Assembly: GCA_002862305.1 (NCBI GenBank)
Contig: PKCS01000022.1
Location: forward strand, 1-39,989
Reading direction: 5' to 3'
Length of the DNA stretch: 39,989 nt
Origin: Phycisphaerae bacterium
GTDB lineage: Bacteria > Planctomycetota > Phycisphaerae > Phycisphaerales > SM1A02
The position numbers were made by a program, and so were the translations under genes. Positions 5,348 through 19,312 of this stretch are shown here, in pieces. Below the pieces are notes generated by a model. It was not told the DNA's origin, did no database searches, and was given only the letters and a program-made list of their open reading frames with translations. Each line of letters opens with the position of its first letter. Position 1 is the stretch's first letter.

Positions 5348-8300
5348 ATGTCAGTCTTCTTCAAGCGCAGGCAGCCGAGCTCCCCGGTCGAGTCCGCCCG
5401 GGAGACCCCGGATCCGCCGACCAGGCGATCCCCGCTGGATCCCGCGCTCGAGGAGCGGGCGGTGGCCCACGGGCGCACCTTCCTCGCCCATGCAAGGGCG
5501 GGCCGGACCGGGATCCTCAGCAAGGGCTTCTGGTCCGACAAGCTGATGGACCTCTCGATGAAGGACGAGGCCTTCAAGGTCCAGCTGTTCCGGTTCGTGG
5601 ATGCGTTCCCGATGCTCCGCACCCCCGAGCAGGTCCACGAGCACCTCACGGACTACCTGTCGCAGCCGGGGGTCACCCCCCCGCCGGGCTTCGAGCTCGG
5701 GGTCAGGGCCGGCGGGCTGGCCAAGGGGCTCATGACCCGGACCTTCTCGAACCAGATCACCTCGATGGCACGGAAGTTCATCGCGGGGACCGAGTCGACC
5801 AGCGCCCTCCCCCAGCTCGAGAAGCTCTGGAAGAACGGCCTCGCCTTCTCGGTCGACCTCCTCGGCGAGGCCTGCGTGAGCAACGCGGAGGCCGAGGACT
5901 ACCGAAGCAAGTACCGGGACCTGGTGGAGAACCTCCCCGGGATGGTGGCGGCCTGGCCGGCCAATCCGCTGCTCGAGAACGACCACCTCGGGGCGATACC
6001 GAGGACCAACGTGTCGATCAAGATCTCGTCGCTCTTCGCCAACACCGACCCCATCGACTTCGAGGGATCGGTCCGGGGCCTCGAGGAGGCGGTGACCCCC
6101 CTGCTGGAACTCGCGAGCAGGAACGACGTCTTCATCAACTTCGACATGGAGCAGTACGCCCTCAAGGAGATCACCCTCGAGCTGTTCATGCGATGCTGCG
6201 AGAAGATCGACTTCCACGCGGGCATCGCGATGCAGGCCTACCTGCGATCGGGGGACCGGGATGCGGCGAGGCTGGTCGAGTGGTCGAAGCGGACCGGGCG
6301 ACAGGTCTCGGTGCGGCTGGTCAAGGGTGCCTACTGGGACTACGAGACGATCAACGCGGAACAGGAAGGCTGGCCGGTCCCGGTGTGGAGCCACAAGCCG
6401 GACACCGATGCCTGTTTCGAGCGTATGAGCTCCACGTTCATCGACGCCACCCCGCGGACCCGCGGGGAGGGCGGGGTCAAGCTCGCACTGGGCTCGCACA
6501 ACGCACGCTCGATCGGCACCGCGCTGGCGCAGCTCGAACGGGCGGACCTGCCCCCCGAGGCGCTCGAGCTCCAGATGCTCTTCGGCATGGGTCAGGAGCT
6601 CAAGACCGCCTCGACCGAGATGGGACTTCGACTCAGGGAGTACGTGCCCGTGGGCGAGATGATCCCGGGAATGGCCTACCTGGTGCGCAGGCTCCTCGAG
6701 AACACCTCGAATGAATCGTGGCTGAGGGCGGGGTTCCTGGACAACGCCTCCGAGGCCGACCTGCTCCGCTCTCCGCATCGCGGGTTCGAGAACGACCCCG
6801 GGGTGGACCGGATCGAGCGGGCGCCGGAACGCCACCAGCTGTCCGGGACGGTCCCGGAACTCGGGGGTGGACGACCGTTCTTCAGCGAGCCGATGCGCGA
6901 CTTCTCCGAGGCCGGCGCCCGGGACCGCTTCGGTGAGGCGGTTCGAGCCGCGGAGGTCCCGGACCCGCCCACGGACTGCAGCCTCGAGGAGGTCGACCGG
7001 GCGATCGGCGACCTGCACGCCTTCTTCCCGACCTGGTCGGGCACCCCCCACCTGGCCAGGGCCGAGGTGTTGATGAGGGCCGCGGACCTGATGCGCCGGC
7101 GACGGGACGAGCTCTCGGGCATCGTGATCCGCGAGAACGGCAAGACCTGGCGGGATGCGGACGCCGAGGTGTGCGAGGCCATCGATTTCTGCGAGTACTA
7201 CGCGAGGGAGGCGCACCAGCTCTTCGCGCCGCGTCGCCTCGGTCGGTTCATCGGCGAGATCGACGAGGTCTGGAACCAGCCACGGGGGGTGGCCGCGGTG
7301 ATCAGCCCCTGGAACTTCCCCTTCGCGATCTGCGCGGGCATGTGCACCGCGGCCCTGGTCACCGGGAACGTGGTCGCCCTCAAGCCCGCGGAGCAGACGC
7401 CGGGCACCGCCCGGGTGCTGGTGGACCTCCTGCGGCAGGCGGGCCTGCCCGAAGGAGCGATCCGCTACCTGCCGGGTCCGGGGGAGACGGTCGGGGCCTC
7501 GCTGGTGCGCGACCGGAGGATCTCGCTCATCGCCTTCACCGGGTCCCGGGAGGTCGGCCTGGACATCATCGAGGCGGCGGGGCGCACCGATGAGGGACAG
7601 GGACACGTGAAGAAGGTCGTCTGCGAGATGGGCGGGAAGAACGCGATCATCATCGACGCCTCGGCCGACCTCGACGAGGCGGTGCTCGGGGTCCGGCAGT
7701 CCGCGTTCGGATTCAGCGGGCAGAAGTGCTCCGCCTGCAGCAGGGTGATCGTGGTCGACAGTGCCCACGACGCGTTCCTCGACCGGCTGGTGGAGAGCAC
7801 CAGGACGCTGGTGATCGGCGACCCGGTGGATCCGGGAACCGACGTGGGGCCGGTGATCGACGCGGAGGCGGCGGCCAAGATCACGTCGTTCATCGAGCTG
7901 GCGGGGTCGGAAGGAACGATCGAATGCAGCCTGCCCGTCCCGGATGGACTCCCGGAGAAGGTCGGCATGCCCTACGTGGGGCCGACCATCGTCAGCGGGA
8001 TCACCCGGGATGACCGGCTGGCCACCGAGGAGATCTTCGGTCCGGTGCTGGCGGTGATCCGGGTCCGGGACTTCGACGAGGCGCTCGAGGTGGCCAATCA
8101 CACCAGCTACAAGCTGACGGGTGGGGTCTACAGCCGGAAGCCGTCGCATCTCGATCGGGCTCGACGCGAGTTCAGGGTCGGCAACCTCTACCTCAACCGC
8201 GGCATCACCGGGGCCCTGGTCGGCCGCCAGCCGTTCGGGGGCTTCGGCATGAGTGGAGTGGGCAGCAAGGCGGGCGGTTCCGAATACCTGCTCCAGTTCG

Positions 8301-8359
8301 TCGAGCCGAGGGCCTGCAGCGAGAACGCGATGAGACGCGGTTTCGCCCCCGGACTCTGA
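5348..8359 (+). CDS. putA: Bifunctional proline dehydrogenase / L-glutamate gamma-semialdehyde dehydrogenase PutA
   Basis: Oxidises proline to glutamate in two steps, with FAD then NAD+, feeding electrons to quinone at the inner membrane face. The 1003 residues hold a proline dehydrogenase barrel (about 100-470; FDMEQYALKE, RQVSVRLVKGAYWDYE, LGSHNARSI) and an aldehyde dehydrogenase domain (about 550-990; ISPWNFPFAI, AFTGSREVG, VCEMGGKNAI). The catalytic Cys794 lies in SGQKCSACSR and the closing motif is RQPFGGFGMSG. There is no N-terminal ribbon-helix-helix DNA-binding domain, so it is the bifunctional rather than the autoregulatory form; length fits that class. It begins 36 bases after the glycosyltransferase with only a weak ribosome binding site. 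The reverse strand here is also open for about 1000 codons, which is a codon-bias shadow. Confidence 0.97.
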   Translation: MSVFFKRRQPSSPVESARETPDPPTRRSPLDPALEERAVAHGRTFLAHARAGRTGILSKGFWSDKLMDLSMKDEAFKVQLFRFVDAFPMLRTPEQVHEHLTDYLSQPGVTPPPGFELGVRAGGLAKGLMTRTFSNQITSMARKFIAGTESTSALPQLEKLWKNGLAFSVDLLGEACVSNAEAEDYRSKYRDLVENLPGMVAAWPANPLLENDHLGAIPRTNVSIKISSLFANTDPIDFEGSVRGLEEAVTPLLELASRNDVFINFDMEQYALKEITLELFMRCCEKIDFHAGIAMQAYLRSGDRDAARLVEWSKRTGRQVSVRLVKGAYWDYETINAEQEGWPVPVWSHKPDTDACFERMSSTFIDATPRTRGEGGVKLALGSHNARSIGTALAQLERADLPPEALELQMLFGMGQELKTASTEMGLRLREYVPVGEMIPGMAYLVRRLLENTSNESWLRAGFLDNASEADLLRSPHRGFENDPGVDRIERAPERHQLSGTVPELGGGRPFFSEPMRDFSEAGARDRFGEAVRAAEVPDPPTDCSLEEVDRAIGDLHAFFPTWSGTPHLARAEVLMRAADLMRRRRDELSGIVIRENGKTWRDADAEVCEAIDFCEYYAREAHQLFAPRRLGRFIGEIDEVWNQPRGVAAVISPWNFPFAICAGMCTAALVTGNVVALKPAEQTPGTARVLVDLLRQAGLPEGAIRYLPGPGETVGASLVRDRRISLIAFTGSREVGLDIIEAAGRTDEGQGHVKKVVCEMGGKNAIIIDASADLDEAVLGVRQSAFGFSGQKCSACSRVIVVDSAHDAFLDRLVESTRTLVIGDPVDPGTDVGPVIDAEAAAKITSFIELAGSEGTIECSLPVPDGLPEKVGMPYVGPTIVSGITRDDRLATEEIFGPVLAVIRVRDFDEALEVANHTSYKLTGGVYSRKPSHLDRARREFRVGNLYLNRGITGALVGRQPFGGFGMSGVGSKAGGSEYLLQFVEPRACSENAMRRGFAPGL

Positions 8360-8388
8360 GCCCCGGGCACGGGACGCCGGGCTGCGAG

Positions 8389-8394
8389 TACACT
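8389..8394 (+). promoter_or_regulatory. Candidate -10 box of the TauE/SafE gene
   Basis: TACACT ends 9 bases before the ATG at 8404 and no Shine-Dalgarno follows, so the mRNA would start within about 3 bases of the codon. No convincing -35 is seen. Confidence 0.35.
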
Positions 8395-8403
8395 CGACGC
8401 CCA

Positions 8404-9273
8404 ATGGAGTTCGACCTCGCCAACATCCTGATCACGGGGGCCATCGGCCTCGCCGGGGGCCTGCTCGGCGGCCTGCTTGGGATCGGGGGATCGATCGTCG
8501 TGATCCCCATGCTCGGGTTCGCCTACGGTCCCAACCAGCAGCTCTACCAGGCGACCGCGATGATCATGAACGTCGTGGTGGGCGCCAGCGCGACCCTCAA
8601 GCACCACCTGAAGGGGGCGATCCAGCTTCGGCTGGTGGCTCGCCTGATCCCCGCGGCCCTGGTCGGGATCCTGGGGGGGGTGGCGCTCAGCAACGCGATC
8701 CCCCCACTGCCGTTGCAGCTGCTCTTCGCCGTGTTCCTGGTCTACATCGGGCTGCGCGAGGCGTGGACGGCGTACGGCCCCGGCCGTCGCGACGAGCCGC
8801 GGGAGGGACGGGAGTCCACGGGCAGGGTCGCCGGGGTGGGCGGGTTCACGGGACTCCTCGCCGGCCTGCTGGGCATCGGGGGGGGGATCGTGATCATCCC
8901 CCTGCTCAAGCGATTCTGCAGGATGGAGATGAAGCAGGCCATTCCCGCCAGCTCGGCGACCATGCTGGTCACCGCGACGGTGGGCGCCACGTACAAGAAC
9001 CTCACGCTCCCGGAACTCATGGCCCCGGACGGGACCCCCCTCCGGATCGCCGAGAGCCTGGGACTGGCGGCGGCGATGGTCCCGACGGCCTTCCTCGGGA
9101 GCTACGTGGGGGCCGGCCTCATGCATCGGCTCCCGATGGGACTGATCAGGAGGATCTTCGCGATCCTGATCCTCCTCGCGGCGGCCAGGATGGCGTCCTC
9201 GGCGTGGACCCAGATGAAGGCGACACCGGCCGCCGGGATCACGCTGGCCGCGGAGTCGGCGGTCACTCGCTGA
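8404..9273 (+). CDS. TauE/SafE family sulfite/anion permease
   Basis: Polytopic inner-membrane protein of 289 residues, the usual size of TauE/SafE (former DUF81) exporters of sulfite, sulfoacetate or related organic anions. It has the internal duplication typical of the family: GGLLGGLLGIGGSIVVIPML near the N terminus and GLLAGLLGIGGGIVIIPLL in the second half, separated by a charged loop (YGPGRRDEPREGRES). About eight membrane segments can be drawn. The ATG at 8404 leads straight into the first hydrophobic segment and follows the possible -10 box TACACT. The 3' end overlaps the oppositely oriented DUF1573 gene by 11 bases. Nothing nearby concerns sulfur, so the transported substrate is open. 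Confidence 0.9.
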   Translation: MEFDLANILITGAIGLAGGLLGGLLGIGGSIVVIPMLGFAYGPNQQLYQATAMIMNVVVGASATLKHHLKGAIQLRLVARLIPAALVGILGGVALSNAIPPLPLQLLFAVFLVYIGLREAWTAYGPGRRDEPREGRESTGRVAGVGGFTGLLAGLLGIGGGIVIIPLLKRFCRMEMKQAIPASSATMLVTATVGATYKNLTLPELMAPDGTPLRIAESLGLAAAMVPTAFLGSYVGAGLMHRLPMGLIRRIFAILILLAAARMASSAWTQMKATPAAGITLAAESAVTR

Positions 9274-10432
9274 CCGGGCTCGCGCCGGCCGGGGAACGCA
9301 CCGAGATGAAGGCGGGAACCACGATGTCCGCACGGTTGCTGGCTCGGATCGTCAGCGGGAAGTAGTACATCCCCTCCGGCTTGTCCGGATCGACGGTGAA
9401 GCGATAGGTCGTCGCGAGTTCGTCCTCCGACTCGAGGATCTCCTGCGAGGCGATCTCCACCGTGATCCCGGGTTCGTCGGTGGTCGCGGAGACGATTGGT
9501 CCGGTCAGGCTCGCCTCCCGGGAGGAATGGACCTTCTCGATGCTGCCACCGGGGGGCGTGCGTCCGAGGTTCAGCATGTAGGACTTCAGCTTGAACCGTC
9601 GGTCGATGTCGAGCGCACTGTTGCGGTGGCGCAGCAACACCTCGACCAGCGGGGCGTCCTCCCGGTCGGTCTCGACGACCACGTAGCGCTCGTATCGTCC
9701 ATCGGGTTGCCGGTAGTCCTCGATGTCGTAGACCAGGAGGTGCTGGACGCGAGGGCCTACGGTGGCCTCCTTGCTGGCTCCATAGAGCGGAGGGCGGCCC
9801 TGGACGGACAGCACCCGGAAGGGTTGCCGGTCGAGCGAGGACACCATGAGGGTGCCGGTCTGGTTGACCACGGCGTTGCTGTTGGGATCGTTGGGCTCCC
9901 CCACGGTATTGATGTACTGGGGCCGGATCCGGACCGGACGGGAGACCTCGGCGGTGCCGTCGAACTCGAGGAGCTTCGAATAGCCCTCGACCAGGACCTT
10001 GATCCGGGTGGTCTTGCGACCGACCGAGTTCTGGGGGTCCAGCTGGGCCTCGAGGGTCACCTTCCCACCCGGGGGGATGGTCTGGCCGTCGAGGCTCCTG
10101 GTGGTCGTGCAGGCACAGCTTGACTGGACGGTGACGATGGTCAGGGGTTCGTTGGAGATGTTCTCGAGCTCGACGGATCCGTCGACGGGGGTCTCGGGAT
10201 CGGTCGTCCCCCAGTTCAGGATGCTGGGGATCACCCGGATCGGGGGGATGGCATCCCTGGCCTGGCCGGAGATCTCGCCGGCGGGGCCGGGAGCCGCCGT
10301 CGAATCCGAGCCGGGCGAGGCATCATTCGAGGACCCTTCGGAACAGCCCTGGAACAGTCCGAGGACCAGCAGGAGGGACCAGAGCACGGCTCCGGAGGCG
10401 ATGGATGGACTCGAGCTGGGTGGCATCTTCAC
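9263..10432 (-). CDS. DUF1573 domain lipoprotein
   Basis: Secreted lipoprotein of 389 residues, probably anchored in a membrane facing the periplasm. The signal peptide runs to a lipobox LFQGC with the lipidated cysteine at residue 30, followed by a Ser/Gly/Pro-rich linker. Residues about 70-145 form the immunoglobulin-like DUF1573 domain (NWGTTDPETPVDGSVELENIS, SSCACTTTR, IPPGGKVTLEAQLD). The remaining 240 residues are beta-rich and may hold further Ig-like modules. DUF1573 proteins are common in Planctomycetota and Bacteroidota; their role is unknown. The GTG at 10432 is chosen because GGAG lies 7 bases upstream; an ATG at 10426 would lose two residues. The gene overlaps the TauE gene tail to tail by 11 bases. 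Confidence 0.85.
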   Translation of the reverse strand: MKMPPSSSPSIASGAVLWSLLLVLGLFQGCSEGSSNDASPGSDSTAAPGPAGEISGQARDAIPPIRVIPSILNWGTTDPETPVDGSVELENISNEPLTIVTVQSSCACTTTRSLDGQTIPPGGKVTLEAQLDPQNSVGRKTTRIKVLVEGYSKLLEFDGTAEVSRPVRIRPQYINTVGEPNDPNSNAVVNQTGTLMVSSLDRQPFRVLSVQGRPPLYGASKEATVGPRVQHLLVYDIEDYRQPDGRYERYVVVETDREDAPLVEVLLRHRNSALDIDRRFKLKSYMLNLGRTPPGGSIEKVHSSREASLTGPIVSATTDEPGITVEIASQEILESEDELATTYRFTVDPDKPEGMYYFPLTIRASNRADIVVPAFISVRSPAGASPVSE

Positions 10433-10633
10433 GTGTTCTCTCCGATAAGGTGTCCCAGGGGACTGGATCGCGGCCGAGCGGATGGACCGGCTGAACTAGG
10501 CTGAGCGTTCAGGAGCGTGCTTTTTACCAGCGATCCGCGACGAATGGGCTCACCGTCCGGCCCTGCGGGCCTGCAGGGGGCAAAAAAGAGTCAAATACTA
10601 GGCCTTCATCCTTTCCCCGGGGCCCTGATACAT

Positions 10634-10639
10634 TACTAT
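10634..10639 (+). promoter_or_regulatory. Candidate -10 box of the intergenic small RNA
   Basis: TACTAT, preceded by a partly overlapping TACATT at 10629-10634, ends 5 bases before the first hairpin of the proposed RNA. That places a start at about 10645-10646. The -35 position holds only a poor match (ctttcc at 10611-10616). Confidence 0.4.
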
Positions 10640-10644
10640 TGTCT

Positions 10645-10841
10645 GTGAGGAATGAGAGCCTCACGACGCCCAGCGTCATCCGACTCCCCTTCATTCATCA
10701 CTGAATGGGACCCACGAATCACAGGCCACTCGGCGACTCTGCCCCTGCATCGAGTCCGCCAGGGCCGGGCATCCAGCAGGATGCCTTCACGGACCCTTTT
10801 CCCTCCCTCCGCCCCCGGCCTTGTGCCGGGGGTCTTTTTTT
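10645..10841 (+). ncRNA. Putative structured small RNA, about 195 nt
   Basis: The 496-base gap between the DUF1573 gene and the thiolase gene holds no credible protein but a chain of perfect hairpins on the + strand. They are GTGAGG/CCTCAC (10645-10664), GACGC/GCGTC (10665-10677), CATTCA/TGAATG (10692-10707), a long interrupted stem 10732-10760 (GGCG, ACTC and TGC pairing with GCA, GAGT and CGCC), and GGCATCC/GGATGCC (10768-10785). The chain ends in an intrinsic terminator. A -10-like TACTAT sits just before the first stem. The C-rich single strand 10800-10810 (ccctccctcc) could pair with Shine-Dalgarno sequences. It does not look like SRP RNA, tmRNA, RNase P or 6S RNA to me, and no known riboswitch is recognised. 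It could instead be an attenuator leader of the thiolase gene. The existence of the RNA is inference; the hairpins are seen. Confidence 0.5.
10812..10841 (+). terminator. Intrinsic (rho-independent) terminator
   Basis: An eight-pair GC stem, CCCCCGGC with GCCGGGGG around the loop CTTGT, is followed by TC and seven T residues. This is the clearest intrinsic terminator in the window. It reads rightward and lies 87 bases before the thiolase start, so it ends a transcript that begins in the gap itself. Confidence 0.9.
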
Positions 10842-10916
10842 CACCGTGGGCGAGCGTGGCCCCTCACGGGAACCCCGGGACCCCCGGGACCCCCAGCCAC
10901 GCCATGCGGGCCCGTC

Positions 10917-10922
10917 TACACT
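10917..10922 (+). promoter_or_regulatory. Candidate -10 box of the thiolase gene
   Basis: TACACT ends 6 bases before the ATG at 10929; the six bases between are all G. Transcription would start at or next to the A of the ATG, giving a leaderless mRNA independent of the small RNA that terminates upstream. Confidence 0.4.
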
Positions 10923-10928
10923 GGGGGG

Positions 10929-12131
<1,203 letters not shown>

Positions 12132-12144
12132 CGCGAGCACCCGC

Positions 12145-13473
12145 TCAGGGCATGCGCGCGATCTTCTCGAAGCCGTCCCCGAAGGCGGCCACCAGGGCAT
12201 CGATCTCGACCTCGGTCATCGGGGTCGACATCATCGCGGTGCAGGTGTTGATCATGATGAAGCCCGCCTCGAAGAGGTGGTCGAGCAGGGCCGAGAGCCT
12301 TGCCCCCTCCTCGGGCGAGAGATAGGCCTCGCGGAAGTTCCGGGGCGGCGTTTCCTTCATGTGGACCCGCAGTATCGAACCCGCTCCGGTCACGCAGGCC
12401 CTGGCACCCGTCGCCCTCGCTGCCTCGGTGATCCCGGTCCGGGCGCGCTCGCTGAGTGCGTTGATCCGCGCCACCGCCGTCTCGTCGAAGTCCAGCATCG
12501 CCACGTGCCCCGCGACCATGCTGATCGGGTTCGCGGAGAAGGTCCCGGAGTGCGGAAACAGGTAGCGGCCGCCGTTGGGGTCCATGACGTCCATGACATC
12601 CGCCCGCCCGGCGACCGCGCCGACCGGGAACCCCCCGCCGATCATCTTGCCCATCGCAGTCAGGTCGGCCTGGATCCCGTAGTGGCTCTGCAGCCCCCCG
12701 TACTCGGACCGGAAGGTGATCACCTCGTCCAGGACCAGCAGCGAGCCGTTCGCGGTGGTCCAGTCCCGGATCGCCCGCATGAAGCCGGGCTCCACGGGGT
12801 TGAGTCCGACCCGGTGGGGCATCGGGTCCAGGACCACCCCGGCGATCTCCTCACGATGCTCGTCGAGCAGTGCGAGGGCCCGCTCGACGTCGTTGAAGGG
12901 GAGGATGACCACGTTGTCGAGGGATGAGTCCGGGGTGCCGTGGACCAGGGGCACCGTGTTCGGTCGCTCGGCGCTTCCCCAGTTCTCCGGCTTCGGGGTC
13001 TGGCTGACCTCGGCGTAGTCGTACCCGCCGTGGTAGGCACCCTCGATCTTCGCGATCCGGGGTCGACCGGTGAAGGCACGGGCCGCCTTGATCCCGACCA
13101 TGATCGCCTCGGTCCCGGAATTGACGAAGCGTATCTTCTCGAAGCCCGGACTCCTCGAGCAGAGGTGCTCCGCGAAGGCGACCTCGGATTCGGTGGCCAT
13201 CATGTAGGCGGTCCCGCGCTCGAGCTGCTCGGTCACCGCCCGAACGATCGGTGGATAGGCGTGGCCGTGGATCAGGGAGGCCATGTTGTTGGAGAAGTCG
13301 ATGCGGGTGGTCCCGTCGAGGTCGGTGATCCGGCAGCCCTCGCCACGAGCGGCGTAGGCGGGGTGGGGCTTCCTGAGCACCGTGTTCCGGCTGACGCCTC
13401 CCGGGAGCACTCGTTGGGCCCTCGCGAAGAGCTCCGCACTCTGACTCGCTGCCTGTTCGGTCTGGATGCTCAT
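12145..13473 (-). CDS. Class III aminotransferase, glutamate-1-semialdehyde-mutase-like (probable beta-amino acid or beta-aminoacyl-CoA transaminase)
   Basis: PLP enzyme of 442 residues. It carries NSGTEA (118-123), YHGG (147-150), the PLP-ring aspartate D249 in LLVLDEV and the Schiff-base lysine K276 in MGKMIGGG, followed by HSGTFSANP. Overall it resembles HemL (glutamate-1-semialdehyde 2,1-aminomutase). However, close relatives of HemL also include beta-phenylalanine aminotransferases and Kat, the 3-aminobutyryl-CoA transaminase described from Candidatus Cloacamonas. In an operon with a 2,3-aminomutase and CoA-transferase, a role in removing the beta-amino group is the better reading; heme synthesis is unlikely because no hem gene is present. 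It is the last gene of the operon. Its ATG overlaps the preceding stop (ATGA) and has GGAGGAA 7 bases upstream, so it may also initiate on its own. An open extension upstream in the same frame is a shadow. Confidence 0.9.
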
Positions 13474-14150
13474 GACGACGTTCCTCCATGATGGACCTCG
13501 GCGGGAAGCACCGGCGCACCGGTACGCTCCTGAAGGGTAGGCAGGTCGACCCCGGGACCGAGCTCCACGACCCGGAAACCGCCCGGGGTCACGTCGAGAA
13601 CCGCGAGGTCCGAATACACGCGATCGACCACGCCACGACCGGTCAGGGGGTAGGTGCACGCCTCGACCAGCTTGGGGTCGCCGGTCTTCGTGCAGTGCTG
13701 GGTCATGACGAAGACCTGCTTCACCCCCGCCACCAGGTCCATCGCACCCCCCACCGCGGGGATCGCGTCGGGGGCTCCCGTGGACCAGTTCGCCAGGTCC
13801 CCGGTGGCGGAGACCTGCATGGCGCCCAGCACGCTGAGGTCGAGGTGCCCGCCGCGGATCATCGCGAAGCTGTCGGCATGGTGGAAGTAGGCGGCGCCCG
13901 CGTTGGCGGTGACGTGCCGCTTGCCCGCGTTGATGAGTTCGGGGTCCCCTGCGCCCTCCTCGGGAGAGGGCCCCATGCCGAGCAGCCCGTTCTCGGTGTG
14001 GTAGATGAAGGTACGACCCTCGGGGACGAACCGGGCGACGAGCTCGGGGATCCCGATGCCGAGGTTGACGTAGGAACCGTCGGCGATGTCCTGGGCGAGG
14101 CGCCTGGCCATCTGCTCGCGGGTCCATCCGAGGGTGGTTGCCTGGCTCAT
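13470..14150 (-). CDS. pcaJ: 3-oxoacid CoA-transferase subunit B (PcaJ-like)
   Basis: Beta subunit of a family I CoA-transferase that moves CoA from succinyl-CoA to a 3-oxoacid. The 226 residues include the catalytic glutamate E53 in HTENGLLGMGPSP. Also present are the family stretches FHHADSFAMIRGGHLDL, TGDLANWSTG, IPAVGGAMDLV, HCTKTGDPKLV and CTYPLTGRGVVDRVYSDLAVLDVTPGG. As I recall them, these are nearer to 3-oxoadipate CoA-transferase PcaJ than to acetoacetate-specific ScoB/AtoA. The start at 14150 overlaps the stop of the A subunit by four bases (ATGA) and has GGAGGGAG 10 bases upstream; the stop overlaps the aminotransferase start. No other pca genes for aromatic ring cleavage are nearby, which suggests the 3-oxoacid comes from another source. 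Confidence 0.94.
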   Translation of the reverse strand: MSQATTLGWTREQMARRLAQDIADGSYVNLGIGIPELVARFVPEGRTFIYHTENGLLGMGPSPEEGAGDPELINAGKRHVTANAGAAYFHHADSFAMIRGGHLDLSVLGAMQVSATGDLANWSTGAPDAIPAVGGAMDLVAGVKQVFVMTQHCTKTGDPKLVEACTYPLTGRGVVDRVYSDLAVLDVTPGGFRVVELGPGVDLPTLQERTGAPVLPAEVHHGGTSS

Positions 14151-14857
14151 GGGTAGCTTGCTCCCTCCGCGACCAGCCGCGACTCGTGAACCGGGTCGGC
14201 GACCTCCAGCACGCGGTCCACGAAGATCCCCGGGGTGACGATCGTCTCGGGGTCGATCGCCCCGGGCTCCAGGACCCTCGCGGCCTGCACGATGGTGACG
14301 TCGGCCGCGGTGGCCATGATCGGGGCGAAGTTCCGGGCGGTCTTGTTGTAGAGCACGTTGCCGTGGGTGTCCGCGGTCGCACCCTTGATCAGGGCGTAGT
14401 CGGCGGTGAGGCCGTGCTCGAGGACGTACTCGCGTCCATGGAACTCACGGGATTCCTTACCCTCCGCCAGGGGGGTCCCCACCGCGGTGGGCGTGAAGAA
14501 GGCGGGGACGCCCGCGCCGCCGGCGCGGATCCGCTCCGCCAGGGTCCCCTGGGGGACCAGCTCCAGCTCGGTGAACCCCTCCCGATAGAGCTCGGGAAAG
14601 ACCGTGGAGTTCAGGGTCTTGGGAAAGGAGCAGATCACCTTGGTGACGCGGCGCTCCTTGAGCAACGCGGCAAGCCCCACCTCACCACTCCCGGTGTTGT
14701 TGCTGATGATGGTCAGGTTGGAGGCCCCCTGGTCGATGAGGGCATGGATCAGCTCGACCGGGCTGCCGGCCTCGCCGAATCCCCCGACCATGATGCTGGA
14801 CCCGTCGGGGATGTCCGCGACCACCTCGGCCGCGCTGGCTGCCCGCTTGTCGATCAT
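14147..14857 (-). CDS. pcaI: 3-oxoacid CoA-transferase subunit A (PcaI-like)
   Basis: Alpha subunit, 236 residues, forming a heteromer with the B subunit encoded immediately downstream. Family motifs are SIMVGGFGEAGSPVELI, LTIISNNTGSGEVGLAALL, VPQGTLAERIRAGGAGVPAFFTPT, LAEGKESREFHGREYVLE, NVLYNKTARNFAPIMATAA and IVTPGIFVDRV. The CSFPKTLNSTVFPELYREG segment resembles PcaI rather than ScoA, where a different sequence stands at this point. The start ATG overlaps the aminomutase stop as ATGA and there is no Shine-Dalgarno before it (ccagatcaacggttgcgg), so translation probably depends on ribosomes finishing the aminomutase. The physiological substrate is inferred from the neighbours: a 3-oxoacid or beta-amino acid made by the aminomutase route. 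Confidence 0.94.
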   Translation of the reverse strand: MIDKRAASAAEVVADIPDGSSIMVGGFGEAGSPVELIHALIDQGASNLTIISNNTGSGEVGLAALLKERRVTKVICSFPKTLNSTVFPELYREGFTELELVPQGTLAERIRAGGAGVPAFFTPTAVGTPLAEGKESREFHGREYVLEHGLTADYALIKGATADTHGNVLYNKTARNFAPIMATAADVTIVQAARVLEPGAIDPETIVTPGIFVDRVLEVADPVHESRLVAEGASYP

Positions 14858-16332
14858 CCGCAACCGTTGATCTGGGGCATGGAACTCACGGGCATCGCCG
14901 GAGCCTTGCCATCCTCGGTGACCCGCGTGTAGTCGAAGAGGCCGGCCTCGTCGAAGAGGACCCGGTCCGCGTAGTCGTCGAACCACACCGCGTCGGGATT
15001 CCGACCGACGATGCAGACCTTGCCCCGGTCGGGGGCGTCGGCCGCGTTGCGCAGCAGCTTGAAGATCACCACGCCGTTCTCGGCCCCCTTGAGGCCGGGA
15101 ATGGGCTCGTTGGTCACCGCATTCACCTCGGTCTTGCCCTTGTAGTGGGTGATCGAGAGCCGTGCGTGGTTCTCGATGCCGGAGAGGCCCTTCTGGGACT
15201 CGTTGAGCGTCTGCCATGCGGTCTCGATGGGGACGTTGAACGCCTTGTACGCGACGATGTCCCGCCCGCAGAAGAAGTAGTGGTTCTCCCCGCCCATCCG
15301 CTTGAACTCACGCTGGAGGATGCGGAGGGCCTTGTAGTCGTCGTTGACCCCCTTGATGATCGGGGACTGGTTCTCGACCGTGAGCCAGCCGCGGGAGATC
15401 AGGCCGCGCATCGCCTCCCAGGTGTCGGGGACCCACTGCAGGAAGCCCTTCTCGTCCTTCACGTAGTTCCCGTCGTCGTCCTTGGCCAGGATCTCGTCGG
15501 GATGCTCGAAATGGAGCATGAAATGCAGGCCCACCTGCGGGTAGGTCTCGTGGAACCGATCCAGCATGTCCAGGAACGGGCCGTCGAACCGCTTGGGGTA
15601 GAAGGCCATTTCCTTGGTGCCGATCCGGATCGACTCGATGCCGGACTCCGCGAGGGCCGAGAGCCAGGCGGCGATCTTCATGTTGTTGAGCACCATCGGG
15701 TCACCGCCGGAGAGGAGGATCTCGCGAAGCTTCTCGCGACCGGTCTCGGGGTGCAGGCCACCGTTCTCCTCGACCAACCGGTTGTGCTCGAGGATGTACG
15801 CGGTCACGTCGGGGATCTTCGCGAGCCCCTTCTTGGCCACGGTGCCGTCGTGTCGTTCGACCTCCTTGCGGGCGATGAGCTCCTCGCGATAGCAGAAGCG
15901 GCAGTGCGCGGAACAGGTGGAGACGACGTACATCAGCCCCATCTCGTACTTGTGCAGGAGGCCCTCCACCGGGCTGTAGTCCATCTGGTTGCCGGGGTCC
16001 TCGGAGCCGGCCATGTCCATGGTCTCGTCCGCGCTCGGCTTCACGATCCGCTTGATCGGCTCGCTCTTCTGTGCGAGCTCGAAGTAGTGGCGGGTGATCT
16101 TGACCGGCATGCGCTTCTCGACGTCCCGATCCGTCCCCTTGAGCACCCGGAGGCTCACGACCTCGTCGTTCGAATAGAAGGACATCATGTCCTCGGGAGC
16201 ACGCTCGTTGAAGAACGGCGCGAGACCGGTGACGATCTCCCGTTCATGGCGAGTCTCCTCGACGGTCTCCAGGAAGGCCTTCTCACGCTCGGTCTGGGTG
16301 TAGGTCGCTTTGGTTCGCACGATGTACTCCAT
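14854..16332 (-). CDS. Radical SAM 2,3-aminomutase (KamA family; lysine/glutamate 2,3-aminomutase-like)
   Basis: Moves the amino group of an alpha-amino acid from C2 to C3 using SAM, a [4Fe-4S] cluster and PLP. The 492 residues carry the cluster motif CSAHCRFC (Cys140, 144, 147), the SAM-binding GGD at 209-211 in LLSGGDPMVL, and a probable PLP lysine K400 in HYKGKTEV. The protein is longer than typical KamA (about 415) and far longer than EpmB (about 340); it has inserts such as KDDDGNYVKDEKGFLQWVP. At the two sites where lysine 2,3-aminomutase holds the substrate side chain with aspartates, I read Arg357 and a threonine, which would favour an acidic substrate; that alignment is from memory. 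It is the first gene of the operon. I chose the ATG at 16332; the GTG at 16395 lies upstream of the predicted transcription start. Confidence 0.9.
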   Translation of the reverse strand: MEYIVRTKATYTQTEREKAFLETVEETRHEREIVTGLAPFFNERAPEDMMSFYSNDEVVSLRVLKGTDRDVEKRMPVKITRHYFELAQKSEPIKRIVKPSADETMDMAGSEDPGNQMDYSPVEGLLHKYEMGLMYVVSTCSAHCRFCYREELIARKEVERHDGTVAKKGLAKIPDVTAYILEHNRLVEENGGLHPETGREKLREILLSGGDPMVLNNMKIAAWLSALAESGIESIRIGTKEMAFYPKRFDGPFLDMLDRFHETYPQVGLHFMLHFEHPDEILAKDDDGNYVKDEKGFLQWVPDTWEAMRGLISRGWLTVENQSPIIKGVNDDYKALRILQREFKRMGGENHYFFCGRDIVAYKAFNVPIETAWQTLNESQKGLSGIENHARLSITHYKGKTEVNAVTNEPIPGLKGAENGVVIFKLLRNAADAPDRGKVCIVGRNPDAVWFDDYADRVLFDEAGLFDYTRVTEDGKAPAMPVSSMPQINGCG

Positions 16333-16368
16333 CCTTGAGTGGGGGATGCGGAAGGGAACCGGTACAGG

Positions 16369-16433
16369 TTGCAGCCTCTGTAACGAATCGTACACTGGGA
16401 AGGTTCGTTTGGAACAGATTATTCAATCGGAGG
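16369..16433. promoter_or_regulatory. Divergent promoter region with inverted repeat, candidate RpiR operator
   Basis: Between the aminomutase operon and the regulator, a rightward promoter can be drawn as TTGCAG (16369-16374), 16 bases, TACACT (16391-16396). A leftward one can be drawn as TTCCAA (16414-16409), 16 bases, TACGAT (16392-16387). The perfect inverted repeat AACGAA (16382-16387) / TTCGTT (16404-16409), centres 22 bp apart, overlaps both. A dimeric HTH protein bound here would cover both promoters on one face of the helix. GGAGG at 16429-16433 is the ribosome binding site of the regulator, 6 bases before its ATG. Confidence 0.5.
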
Positions 16434-16439
16434 CCGTAA

Positions 16440-17267
16440 ATGTCGATAGAGGAACGGATTGCGTCAGCCGGAGTGCGGCTGACCCCAACCGAACGTCGCA
16501 TTGCGGAAACGGTTCTCCAGGATCCCACGCAGCTGGCCTTCGGAACCGTATCGGACCTCGCTGGCCGGGTGCCCACGAGCCCACCCTCCATCGTCCGGTT
16601 CGCGGCGAAGCTGGGGTTCGACGGCTACGCGGACCTGCAACGCTGGGCACGGGCGCAGGTCGCGAACCAGCTGGCGACCCCGGCCCAGCGGATCCGACGT
16701 CCCGAAGGGTCGCAGGCCGATCTTGAAGGGCGCGTGCAGGGGGCGGTCGGCGCCACCCTCGCCACCCTCGACCAGGCGACCCTCGCGCACCTGGCCGGAC
16801 CGCTGGTCACGGCCGAACGCATCGGGATCCTCTCGGGGGAGACCTCGCAGGCGGGAGCCCACGTGCTCCTGAGCGGTCTCTCGATGATCCGGGACGGCGT
16901 CCGCCTCATCGAACAGCACAACTTCGGACGGGACCTGAACGGGGCGACCACCCGGGATGCGGTGGTGGTCTTCGACTTCGCACGCTACCGGCGCAGCTCG
17001 ATCTCGGCCGCCCGGGCACTGCACCGACTGGGGATCCCGCTGGTGGCGATCACCGACAGTCCGCTCTCCCCCCTGTCCCGGCTGACCGAGCATCGCTGCG
17101 AGCTGGAGGTCCCGGCGGTCGGTCCCTTCGACAGCTCGCTGACTGCGGTGCTCGCCGCGGAGCTGCTGGTGCTGGAGGTGGCGGAGTCCCTCGGGCCGTC
17201 GGTGAGGGAGCGCATCGACCGACTCGAACGGTTCTGGGACGAGACCGGGACCTTCCTTGCCGAATAG
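16440..17267 (+). CDS. RpiR/MurR family transcriptional regulator (HTH + SIS domain)
   Basis: DNA-binding regulator of 275 residues. Residues 1-80 form the RpiR-type helix-turn-helix (RLTPTERRIAETVLQDPTQL, then PPSIVRFAAKLGFDGYADLQRWAR). Residues about 120-260 form a SIS domain (ERIGILSGETSQAGAHVLLSGL, AVVVFDFARYRRSSISAARALHRLGIPLVAITDS). SIS domains usually bind phosphosugars, although RpiR proteins near amino-acid and inositol genes are known. The gene is divergent from the aminomutase operon with only 107 bases between starts and has a strong GGAGG site. It is therefore the likely regulator of that operon and of itself, possibly responding to a pathway intermediate. Its 3' end faces the membrane-protein gene at 17306. 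Confidence 0.9.
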   Translation: MSIEERIASAGVRLTPTERRIAETVLQDPTQLAFGTVSDLAGRVPTSPPSIVRFAAKLGFDGYADLQRWARAQVANQLATPAQRIRRPEGSQADLEGRVQGAVGATLATLDQATLAHLAGPLVTAERIGILSGETSQAGAHVLLSGLSMIRDGVRLIEQHNFGRDLNGATTRDAVVVFDFARYRRSSISAARALHRLGIPLVAITDSPLSPLSRLTEHRCELEVPAVGPFDSSLTAVLAAELLVLEVAESLGPSVRERIDRLERFWDETGTFLAE

Positions 17268-17305
17268 CAGCGATCCCTGCGCCCGACCACGTATGGGGGG
17301 AGCAC

Positions 17306-17899
17306 TCAGGAGGAGCGTCCCGGGAGGAGCTTGAATCCTGCCTTCCGCAGCCGCAGCAGGATGTAGCCCGGCCAGACCAGGTGGAGTCCGATGTCGAGGA
17401 TCCCCAGCAGGAGGACCAGCAGGAGTCCGGTCTCGACGTACACCAGCCGGATGACGTCGAAGGAGGAGAACAGCGAGAACACGAAGAGCACGGACGACAG
17501 CGCCGCCCAGAATGGCAGCAGCCTGAAGGCCAGGGGGCGGCGTACCACCACGCACCAGCCCAGGGCGAAGGCGGCGAGTGAAATCAGCACCCTGGCCCAG
17601 GAGAGCATGGCCATCCACCACAGGGGGGGCAGGCCCTCGACGATGCCCTTGACGATCTTGCCCTCCGCGTACTGACCGACGCTGAGCAGTCCACCGGAGA
17701 CCACGTTGAAGAACTTCCCGATCTTCATGTCCGACGAGCTGGAGAGCACCTGCTCTCGGAGCGAGTCGAGTTCCGTGGCCACCCCCCCCATCAGCAGGGC
17801 GAATCCCGCGTTGAAGAGGCCGAGGAGTATCAGCATCGTGGCCATGACCGGGATCCAGCACTGACAGGGGTTCGAGTCGCTCGAGTCGTGGTTCGGCAT
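17306..17899 (-). CDS. Membrane protein of unknown function
   Basis: A 197-residue protein with about four membrane segments: VMATMLILLGLFNAGFALLMGG near the N terminus, SWARVLISLAAFALGWCVVV, LPFWAALSSVLFVFSLF and ETGLLLVLLLGILDIGLHLVW. A soluble stretch (ATELDSLREQVLSSSSDMKIGK) lies after the first segment and the C-terminal end is basic. I do not recognise the family; similar small multi-pass proteins of unknown role are common in Planctomycetota. The ATG at 17899 has GGAAAGG upstream and lies 3 bases beyond the stop of the ATP-grasp gene, so the two form an operon. Confidence 0.75.
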   Translation of the reverse strand: MPNHDSSDSNPCQCWIPVMATMLILLGLFNAGFALLMGGVATELDSLREQVLSSSSDMKIGKFFNVVSGGLLSVGQYAEGKIVKGIVEGLPPLWWMAMLSWARVLISLAAFALGWCVVVRRPLAFRLLPFWAALSSVLFVFSLFSSFDVIRLVYVETGLLLVLLLGILDIGLHLVWPGYILLRLRKAGFKLLPGRSS

Positions 17900-17902
17900 G
17901 TA

Positions 17903-18571
17903 CTACCTTTCCGCCGTCCTGCCGGACGGCCTGGCGGCCTGGGATTCCTGGAGGGTGATCCGACAGTCGATGGCGACCACCGAACCCTCGACGGTGGTGA
18001 CCAGCGGATCGACCTCGAGGTCGGTGGCTCCCCGGGCTTCGGCGAGGGAGGCGATGCGGGTGACCGCTTCCACCAGGGGACCATGGAAATCCGGGTCGAG
18101 ACCGGTGGAACGCACGATCCCGGCCACGGCCTCGAGGTCGATCGGGGGCGTGGCCCCGGGAGGACCGAAGCGGACCGAATCCACCGAGGCCGGGGTGTCG
18201 GGGAGCTTCCTCGAGGCGGCGAGTCGGAGCGTTCGGACGCCGTCGAGGCCTGCGGTGATCGAGAGGTGGAGCTCGTCGACGACGTTGACCGGGACCTCGA
18301 CCAGAAGTTCACTGACGGGGATCCCATGCGTGCCGAGAGCGAGCATCCGTCGCGCGGTTGCCACGGCTGCCTGGGGGCTGCTGACCATTTCCACGCCTCC
18401 GGCGGCCCCGAGGTCCTCGACCAGCGCCTGGATCTTCATGATGGCCCGGCCACCGAGATCCAGGAGGGCCTGCTCGGCCTCCTGGGGCGACCGCACCAGG
18501 ATCCCCCGGGGGATGCGGACCCCCGCTTCGCCGAGCAGGGCCTTCCCTTGGTGTTCATGGAGTCTCGCCAC
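17903..18571 (-). CDS. Stand-alone ATP-grasp domain related to succinyl-CoA synthetase beta subunit
   Basis: The 222 residues match only the N-terminal ATP-grasp half of SucC. RLHEHQGKALLGEAGVRIPRG corresponds to the SucC start LHEYQAK, GRAIMKIQALVEDLGAAGGVEMVSS to the lysine strand, and LEVDPLVTTVEGSVVAIDCRI to the SucC metal-binding segment EINPLV. The usual asparagine of that segment is aspartate here. The C-terminal CoA-ligase domain is absent, and the DNA after the stop is occupied by a membrane-protein gene, so this is not a simple frameshift. No sucD is nearby. The GTG at 18571 is chosen to match the family start; the frame stays open to 18700. The role is unknown: it may be a regulatory or degenerate protein, or it may use another partner. 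Confidence 0.7.
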   Translation of the reverse strand: MARLHEHQGKALLGEAGVRIPRGILVRSPQEAEQALLDLGGRAIMKIQALVEDLGAAGGVEMVSSPQAAVATARRMLALGTHGIPVSELLVEVPVNVVDELHLSITAGLDGVRTLRLAASRKLPDTPASVDSVRFGPPGATPPIDLEAVAGIVRSTGLDPDFHGPLVEAVTRIASLAEARGATDLEVDPLVTTVEGSVVAIDCRITLQESQAARPSGRTAER

Positions 18572-18751
18572 GTGTTGGGTCCATCCTTCAGGTCGCGGGC
18601 CATTCGTCGCCGGGTGCTCCAATGCTACGACAAGCGTGAGGCGCCCGCCACAAACGGAGGGCGGCGGGCGCTGGCGGAAGCGGGATGAGGTTCGTACCAT
18701 CGTGCTCCATGCATACCAGCGGACCGAAGGGTCCGGGTCAGGAGACCATCA

Positions 18752-19312
18752 GTGAAGGCAAGTGATCTCAGGAACGGGATGGCGATCAAGATCTCCGGTC
18801 AGGTCAACATCATCAACAACACCGAGCACGTAAAGCCCGGGAAGGGACCTGCGTACGTCCAGGTCAAGGTCAAGAACATCGAGACCGGATCGGTCGTGGA
18901 GAAGAGACTGCGTTCCGTGGAGGAGGTGGAGCAGGTCAACCTCGACCGACGACCCATGGAATATCTGTACAACGACAGCTCGGGCTACGTCTTCATGGAC
19001 GGCGAGACCTACGACCAGGTGACCCTCTTCGAGGACCTCGTCGGGGACCAGATGGGATTCGTCAAGGCCAACACCGAGATCACGGTGATGTTCTGCGAGG
19101 GTCGCCCGGTCTCGGTGGAGCTCCCGAAGGTGGTGGACCTCGAGGTGTCTGACACCCCACCCGGCATCAAGAACGCCACCGCCACCAACCAGCTCAAGGA
19201 AGCCACTCTCGAGACCGGTCTCCGTACGCGGGTGCCCCCGTTCATCAACATCGGGGACGTGGTCCGGATCTCGACCGACGACGGTTCCTACAACCAACGG
19301 GTCAACGACTGA
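18752..19312 (+). CDS. efp: Elongation factor P
   Basis: Binds the ribosome between the P and E sites and relieves stalling at polyproline stretches. The 186 residues include the KOW-like N-terminal domain with the conserved loop EHVKPGKGPAY, lysine 31 at the tip, then the two OB-fold domains (FMDGETYDQVTL; KNATATNQLKEATLETG, VPPFINIGDVVRISTDDGSY). Lysine at the tip is the residue modified by EpmA/EpmB in gamma-proteobacteria, but no epmA is present in the window. The start is GTG with GGAG 9 bases upstream. Transcription may start near TACCAT around 18697. Several neighbours encode Pro-rich proteins (for example the lipoprotein at 20152), consistent with a need for EF-P. The 3' end overlaps the VTT-family gene by 11 bases. 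Confidence 0.97.
   Translation: MKASDLRNGMAIKISGQVNIINNTEHVKPGKGPAYVQVKVKNIETGSVVEKRLRSVEEVEQVNLDRRPMEYLYNDSSGYVFMDGETYDQVTLFEDLVGDQMGFVKANTEITVMFCEGRPVSVELPKVVDLEVSDTPPGIKNATATNQLKEATLETGLRTRVPPFINIGDVVRISTDDGSYNQRVND

Follow-up and report, generated by a model that had tools for sequence, protein, structure and literature searches.

The closest described relative of the enzyme considered here is lysine 2,3-aminomutase (KAM, or AblA; solved as Protein Data Bank entry 2a5h, whose residue numbering was checked), which shifts an amino group from C2 to C3 and holds the side-chain ammonium of lysine between two aspartates, Asp293 and Asp330. We take KAM Arg116 to be a ligand of the phosphate of pyridoxal 5'-phosphate (PLP), and glutamate 2,3-aminomutase presumably has lysine and asparagine at the places of the two aspartates. 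A review (PMC11284099) names a radical S-adenosylmethionine (SAM) enzyme of incednine biosynthesis, IdnL4, as probably being a glutamate 2,3-aminomutase, for which no activity was observed in vitro. Here, we have analyzed a KAM-like gene of a Phycisphaerae bacterium, located at 14854–16332 on the minus strand of a 39,989-nucleotide stretch of contig PKCS01000022.1 (assembly GCA_002862305.1), the whole of which is referred to as the window. The open reading frame (ORF), which starts at 16332 and ends with the stop codon at 14854, encodes a KAM-like radical SAM, PLP-type 2,3-aminomutase of 492 residues. A first-pass annotation of the same DNA had suggested that this protein lacks the lysine-binding aspartates and uses an acidic substrate, possibly 2-aminoadipate. 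On the basis of current results, an acidic substrate is likely, and the conversion of L-2-aminoadipate to 3-aminoadipate by a radical SAM, PLP-dependent 2,3-aminomutase is our best single guess, unproven and somewhat favored.

Substrate-site residues of the aminomutase

The substrate site was compared with that of KAM in a profile-profile alignment of 50 family rows against 8 KAM-type rows, which extends to residue 377, and in a multiple alignment (MAFFT) of 43 chosen rows. In the former, which gave 27% identity to KAM over the aligned part, Arg357 is matched to KAM Asp293 in a stretch free of gaps, and the 43-row alignment agrees. Thus, the earlier suggestion that this arginine replaces the first lysine-binding aspartate was borne out, whereas the concern that gaps could shift Asp358 into register was not: Asp358 is one position off, and both alignments rule it out as the counterpart of Asp293. 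Among the 43 chosen rows, the Asp293 column holds arginine in 16 and aspartate in 27. At the Asp330 site the loop is shorter in the window protein; MAFFT sets Ser393 there, whereas comparison with four KAM-like proteins whose loop is just as short (D-x-x-x-G-K; L195, L202, L204 and L208) gives Thr395. The residue at this site therefore appears to be Ser393 or Thr395, with an uncertainty of two positions, and neither is acidic; the loss of the second aspartate noted in the first-pass annotation holds under both placements, and its threonine under the second only. The pair of aspartates that binds ammonium in KAM is absent, with Arg357 and Ser393/Thr395 in its place, and this combination is also not the lysine and asparagine assumed for glutamate 2,3-aminomutase. 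In E. coli EpmB, the 43-row alignment gives aspartate and glutamate at the two places. The other expected residues are present: Cys140, Cys144, Cys147, Arg149 and Lys400 correspond in the 43-row alignment to KAM Cys125, Cys129, Cys132, Arg134 and Lys337, and the CxxxCxxC cluster motif, the carboxylate-binding arginine and the PLP lysine are all kept, the cysteines and the lysine just as first read.

By sequence, KAM (2a5h) was the sole solved relative at E 0.001. Structure prediction, proposed earlier as a check, gave an AlphaFold2 model (mean predicted local distance difference test score (pLDDT) 71.7, predicted template modeling score 0.77) with the KAM fold (Z 24.1 against 2a5h, 319 residues aligned, root-mean-square deviation 5.1); the next fold family was RlmN (Z 12.6). 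It should be noted that no curated NCBIfam aminomutase model reached its cut-off with the window protein. The highest score was that of TIGR00238, the KamA family radical SAM protein model (97.6 bits, E 7e-28, cut-off 199.2), followed by TIGR04468 for arginine 2,3-aminomutase (84.8 bits, cut-off 600), TIGR03821 for EpmB (80.6 bits, cut-off 369.3), an AblA-like model (80 bits, cut-off 396), TIGR04368 for glutamate 2,3-aminomutase (77.4 bits, cut-off 650) and TIGR03820 for lysine 2,3-aminomutase (69.4 bits, cut-off 525.4). The aminomutase is related to the curated TIGR00238 subfamily and lies outside it, and none of the curated models tested places it in the lysine, glutamate, arginine or EpmB family; the likeness is one of fold and motifs.

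Relatives of the aminomutase were encoded in 373 of 458 candidate genome-contig stretches, and the best 80 of these (73–86% identity; hereafter the 80 loci) were kept. Most of them are recorded as Phycisphaerales or other Planctomycetota, and three as Verrucomicrobia bins (L073, L088 and L108). The 80 aminomutase gene sequences are all distinct, and the motifs around the two substrate positions, NHYFxCGRD and SITHYxGKTE, could each be found in all 80. A second set of 30 loci, in which 26 duplicate DNA of the 80 and one is the window itself, added three loci with the same motifs. In the 101 genomes of the window's own family (its own genome included), 47 had some match and 35 had a close member at E 1e-100 or better. 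In the phylum of L073, which is recorded as Spartobacteria, relatives were detected at E 1e-60 in 3 of 240 genomes, namely those of L073 and L108 and one with a 48% homolog that has no cassette. No relative of the family was found in the viral contigs searched.

Arginine at the Asp293 site also occurs outside the cassette family, in a Mesorhizobium protein (64% identical), in L230 (48%), in the paralog L031, in L236 from a rhizobial plasmid and in proteins of the actinobacteria Rhodococcus and Nonomuraea. In a tree of the 43 chosen proteins, a single branch (support 100/99) separated the Arg293-type from the Asp293-type rows, with the trait columns themselves kept in and with long branches of L031, EpmB and L236 that make their placement unsure. 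Two of these proteins deserve a separate description. The 48% homolog without cassette (L230, 9012–10424, minus strand, genome G498) is flanked by genes that by eye resemble thrS and cysS and has glutamine at the Asp358 site. L031 (1210–2595, minus strand, genome G002) is a distant paralog with the motif VERDTG and the lysine motif SAFPGK, and similar proteins are present in Rhodococcus and Nonomuraea.

Partner genes and the proposed reaction

Downstream of the aminomutase gene, the minus strand carries genes for subunit A (PcaI/ScoA family; 14147–14857; TIGR02429, 334.1 bits, cut-off 128.5) and subunit B (PcaJ/ScoB family; 13470–14150; TIGR02428, 294.4 bits, cut-off 243.55) of a 3-oxoacid coenzyme A (CoA)-transferase and for a HemL-like class III aminotransferase (12145–13473; PF00202), a proposed beta-amino acid transaminase. 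All three junctions in this row are 4-base ATGA overlaps. A PcaF-like thiolase gene (10929–12131, plus strand) is convergent with the operon. Among the 80 loci, PcaI was found downstream of the aminomutase in 79, PcaJ in 76 and the aminotransferase in 71, each miss having <1.5 kb of contig left, and the thiolase was present in 53. These genes thus form a conserved cassette, mainly of Phycisphaerales, comprising the aminomutase, PcaI, PcaJ, the HemL-like aminotransferase and, on the opposite strand, the PcaF-like thiolase.

The identity of the partners bears on the substrate. Both transferase subunits exceed the cut-offs of their 3-oxoacid CoA-transferase models, and TIGR02430 (pcaF) was the best of 44 models for the thiolase. 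Among the 40 best-ranked of 1397 plasmid records for the thiolase, 28 carried the annotation pcaF, paaJ or beta-ketoadipyl thiolase and 9 that of the thiolase family alone, and 3 had none; these counts include near-copies. In five plasmid neighborhoods of close PcaI matches, pcaF lay in the same row in three and an unnamed thiolase in one, and the stretch shown of the fifth had no thiolase. This last one, on Tistrella mobilis plasmid pTM2 (L231), holds the closest plasmid relative of PcaI (65%), near an aldehyde dehydrogenase gene and a DUF1338 gene; we take DUF1338 to include an enzyme of 2-oxoadipate breakdown. For the aminotransferase, the nearest solved protein was 6k8h, named only as a class III aminotransferase, followed by ForI and glutamate-1-semialdehyde aminomutases, and the beta-transaminases 4ao9 and 2yku were among its top 15 solved matches. 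A HemL-like enzyme is reported as an acyl-CoA beta-transaminase of lysine fermentation that is active on thioesters (PMC3149608). Taken together, a set of an aminomutase, a transaminase, a CoA-transferase and a thiolase would yield two CoA esters from one beta-amino acid.

A second pairing was found on a plasmid of Mesorhizobium sp. 113-3-3, where an aminomutase (64%), the ferredoxin FdxA, an aminotransferase (60%) and a two-subunit CoA-transferase are encoded in one row. This transferase is barely alignable with the PcaIJ of the window; its beta subunit has 81% identity to a protein of a Chelatococcus pca operon, 79% to one of a Methylocella pca operon and 68% to a Phyllobacterium subunit directly preceding pcaF. 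The same aminomutase and transaminase thus occur with two different CoA-transferases, both of which appear to point to 3-oxoadipate; although it comes from one plasmid, this is the strongest argument for 2-aminoadipate, because a 2,3-shift and a transamination of this amino acid would give 3-oxoadipate.

From the observed sequence, gene order, conservation, fold match and residue alignment, we infer the substrate, the direction and order of the steps and the role of Arg357 as follows. Two independent lines, the Asp293-to-Arg change and the gene partners, support an acidic substrate; 2-aminoadipate is favored since the PcaIJ-like transferase, the PcaF-nearest thiolase and the pca-like transferase of Mesorhizobium point to 3-oxoadipate. 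The 4Fe-4S cluster and SAM would generate a deoxyadenosyl radical, and the substrate would be held as an imine on PLP, which is bound at Lys400. As in KAM, the amino group would then shift from C2 to C3, while Arg357 and a hydroxyl residue (Ser393 or Thr395) might bind the distal carboxylate where the KAM aspartates bind the lysine ammonium. The HemL-like transaminase would convert 3-aminoadipate to 3-oxoadipate, PcaIJ would convert this to 3-oxoadipyl-CoA, and the thiolase would release succinyl-CoA and acetyl-CoA; alternatively, CoA transfer could come first and transamination afterwards.

Counter-evidence and rival substrates

Several observations weigh against 2-aminoadipate, and they are considered here together with the explanations that they would favor. 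First, the partners do not all point equally clearly to 3-oxoadipate. The nearest solved relatives of PcaI are acetoacetate-type transferases. The first-pass reading of the partners as PcaIJ/PcaF-like held for PcaIJ by the models passed, whereas for the thiolase pcaF is the best model and its score falls just short of the cut-off (566.9 versus 597 bits). Solved thiolases 8gqh (476 bits) and 1ulq (465 bits), neither of them named PcaF, outscored the PcaF 6pca (457 bits, third), and Thermus thiolases adjoining a benzoate-CoA ligase are equally close to the window thiolase. In 10 of the 80 loci the thiolase is absent despite >5 kb of room. In Mesorhizobium, the ORF of the transferase alpha subunit has neither end and does not figure in the gene table, and this subunit may be damaged in the strain.

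Second, if 2-aminoadipate is derived from lysine, the genes producing it should co-occur with the cassette. A lysine-dehydrogenase-like gene was counted in 60 of the 101 family genomes (E 1e-69 or better; 8 weaker matches left out) and lysine 6-aminotransferase in 30 (E 1e-80), 18 of which were over the curated cut-off. No significant association could be observed for the lysine-dehydrogenase-like gene (23 of 35 cassette genomes versus 37 of 66 others, p 0.40), for lysine 6-aminotransferase (13 of 35 versus 17 of 66, p 0.26) or for either gene (26 of 35 versus 40 of 66, p 0.19). Nine of the 35 cassette genomes had neither gene, including three that are 96–98% complete (G005, G039 and G070). 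The nearest solved chain of the lysine-dehydrogenase-like protein is 3abi, presumably a lysine dehydrogenase; no NCBIfam lysine dehydrogenase model matched the first of these proteins, and the apparent NADH dehydrogenase subunit gene (named by eye) that adjoins the lysine-dehydrogenase-like gene is uninformative.

Because the lysine-to-aminoadipate genes show no significant link to the cassette, glutamate stays a live rival, although we consider it unlikely. Glutamate would be converted to 3-aminoglutarate and then 3-oxoglutarate, which would be either activated and cleaved or decarboxylated to acetoacetate for a SCOT-like transferase and a thiolase. Such a substrate is likewise acidic and needs no upstream pathway, which fits the nine cassette genomes with neither gene, and the acetoacetate-type relatives of PcaI also speak for it. 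The window thiolase is nonetheless nearest to pcaF, the Mesorhizobium transferase is closely related to pca-operon enzymes, and the TIGR04368 score is only 77.4 bits against 650; to our knowledge, glutamate also needs no such route. No glutamate or arginine 2,3-aminomutase over the cut-off could be identified in 11 genomes and 14 controls, and the lack of the glutamate enzyme in the 43-protein tree is a further point against 2-aminoadipate.

There is also a small chance that another substrate follows the same cassette logic, such as leucine (giving beta-leucine, then isobutyryl-CoA and acetyl-CoA), 2-aminopimelate or a neutral amino acid, given that an aminomutase, a beta-transaminase, a CoA-transferase and a thiolase would fit any beta-amino acid. 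Some Arg293-type enzymes lie in loci with a biosynthetic look. On a Sinorhizobium medicae plasmid (L236, 6001–7080, plus strand), the aminomutase gene is found by two ATP-grasp ligase-like genes, an aspartate-semialdehyde dehydrogenase gene and an AblA-like paralog; on a plasmid of Rhodococcus sp. DK176 (L238, 6662–7978, plus strand), it is clustered with AMP-binding, ATP-grasp, N-hydroxylase-like and saccharopine-dehydrogenase-like genes. For the cassette itself, however, a conserved arginine in place of aspartate would hardly suit a neutral side chain, except as a PLP ligand, and the partners resemble 3-oxoadipate enzymes.

Third, the role of Arg357 is itself subject to doubt. Both substrate-site loops of the AlphaFold2 model (residues 356–361 and 396–399) have pLDDT <50. 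Moreover, the position of KAM Arg116, which is Met131 in the window protein, holds methionine, leucine or threonine in all 16 Arg293-type rows and arginine in all 27 Asp293-type rows. Because the loss of Arg116 covaries with the Asp293-to-Arg change, Arg357 could have taken over the PLP phosphate, in which case it would be uninformative on the side chain of the substrate; the two changes appear to be a linked pair in need of structural explanation. On this basis lysine itself might be the substrate, converted via beta-lysine and 6-amino-3-oxohexanoate to 4-aminobutyryl-CoA, with Asp358 or another acid binding the ammonium and Arg357 replacing Arg116. The covariation has no exception in the 43 rows, and all 50 aligned family rows have Asp358. 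However, Asp358 is one off register and is not kept in Arg293-type proteins beyond the cassette family (glutamine in L230 and proline in L236, both of which keep the arginine), the partner enzymes suggest a dicarboxylate, and TIGR03820 gave only 69.4 bits against 525.4; we therefore regard lysine as improbable, with only a slim chance.

Finally, an EpmB-like lysine aminomutase that modifies EF-P, a role to which the nearby efp gene could point, is highly implausible and was ruled out by the TIGR03821 score (80.6 bits, cut-off 369.3) and by the rarity of efp near the cassette (3 of the 80 loci, with room on at least one side in 71), the partner genes being catabolic as well. The efp gene (18752–19312, plus strand) encodes a product that retains the PGKG lysine, and its closeness to a KamA-type gene is probably due to chance.

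Other neighbors give little further information. Divergent from the operon is a gene for an RpiR-family regulator (16440–17267, plus strand; PF01418 and PF01380), which was found in this place in 42 of the 80 loci, and 28 of the other 38 have at least 1.6 kb of room; the regulator is therefore not a fixed part of the cassette. A PutA-like protein with proline dehydrogenase and aldehyde dehydrogenase parts, under the PutA equivalog cut-off, is encoded at 5348–8359 (plus strand), and such a gene occurred near the cassette in only 3 of the 80 loci; in 41 of the 80 the sequence is long enough in both directions. When all reading frames were compared with one another, with many loci being short, protein kinase was the commonest family outside the cassette (11 of the 80 loci); ABC transporter, sigma factor and oxidoreductase genes are neighbors in a few loci only, and none of these four families offers a functional hint. 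In L051, L053 and L063, the block from regulator to thiolase is reversed relative to its direction in the window (region 5348–19312), and the flanking proline dehydrogenase and efp genes keep their place and direction, as if the cassette had flipped as a single unit.

Relation to described pathways

Returning to 2-aminoadipate, the acidic substrate proposed in the first-pass annotation is upheld by the Asp293-to-Arg change and the gene partners, and its choice of 2-aminoadipate gains from the 3-oxoadipate-type partners and loses from the Arg116 covariation and the null co-occurrence. On balance, we lean slightly toward the view that this is the first 2-aminoadipate 2,3-aminomutase, a member of a family with arginine at the Asp293 site, which would link lysine/aminoadipate breakdown to the lower beta-ketoadipate pathway; planctomycetes and a rhizobium would have paired it with different 3-oxoadipate CoA-transferases. 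No relevant report linking a 2,3-aminomutase with aminoadipate or 3-oxoadipate was found in the literature searched, in which subscription papers were mostly outside reach. If this view is true, the radical SAM 2,3-aminomutases, a small group, would gain a new enzyme activity and a new substrate, and lysine-derived 2-aminoadipate would reach central metabolism by a new route that bypasses 2-oxoadipate and glutaryl-CoA. In addition, many marine planctomycetes would have a catabolic operon, open to testing, that includes a gene left unnamed by the curated NCBIfam aminomutase models, and the enzyme could serve as a source of beta-amino dicarboxylic acids.

Compared with described systems, the window protein shares with KAM/AblA the fold, the CxxxCxxC motif and the equivalents of Arg134 and Lys337, whereas it differs in having arginine for Asp293, serine or threonine for Asp330, methionine for Arg116 and partners of a CoA pathway. 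With glutamate 2,3-aminomutase (TIGR04368) it has in common a basic residue at the Asp293 place, presumably lysine in that enzyme; it differs in the residue pair, in which we take the glutamate enzyme to have lysine and asparagine, and in its score, far under the cut-off of that model. The lysine fermentation of Candidatus Cloacamonas likewise combines a 2,3-aminomutase, a HemL-like class III transaminase (the acyl-CoA beta-transaminase Kat) and a thiolase; in contrast, it has three extra enzymes before Kat, which acts on 3-aminobutyryl-CoA and on thioesters only (PMC3149608). The window cassette also differs from that route in its type of aminomutase and in its PcaIJ-like CoA-transferase. Finally, the lower beta-ketoadipate pathway has CoA-transferase and thiolase families (PcaIJ and PcaF) in common with the cassette, whereas the 3-oxoadipate of the window would derive from an amino acid rather than from an aromatic ring.

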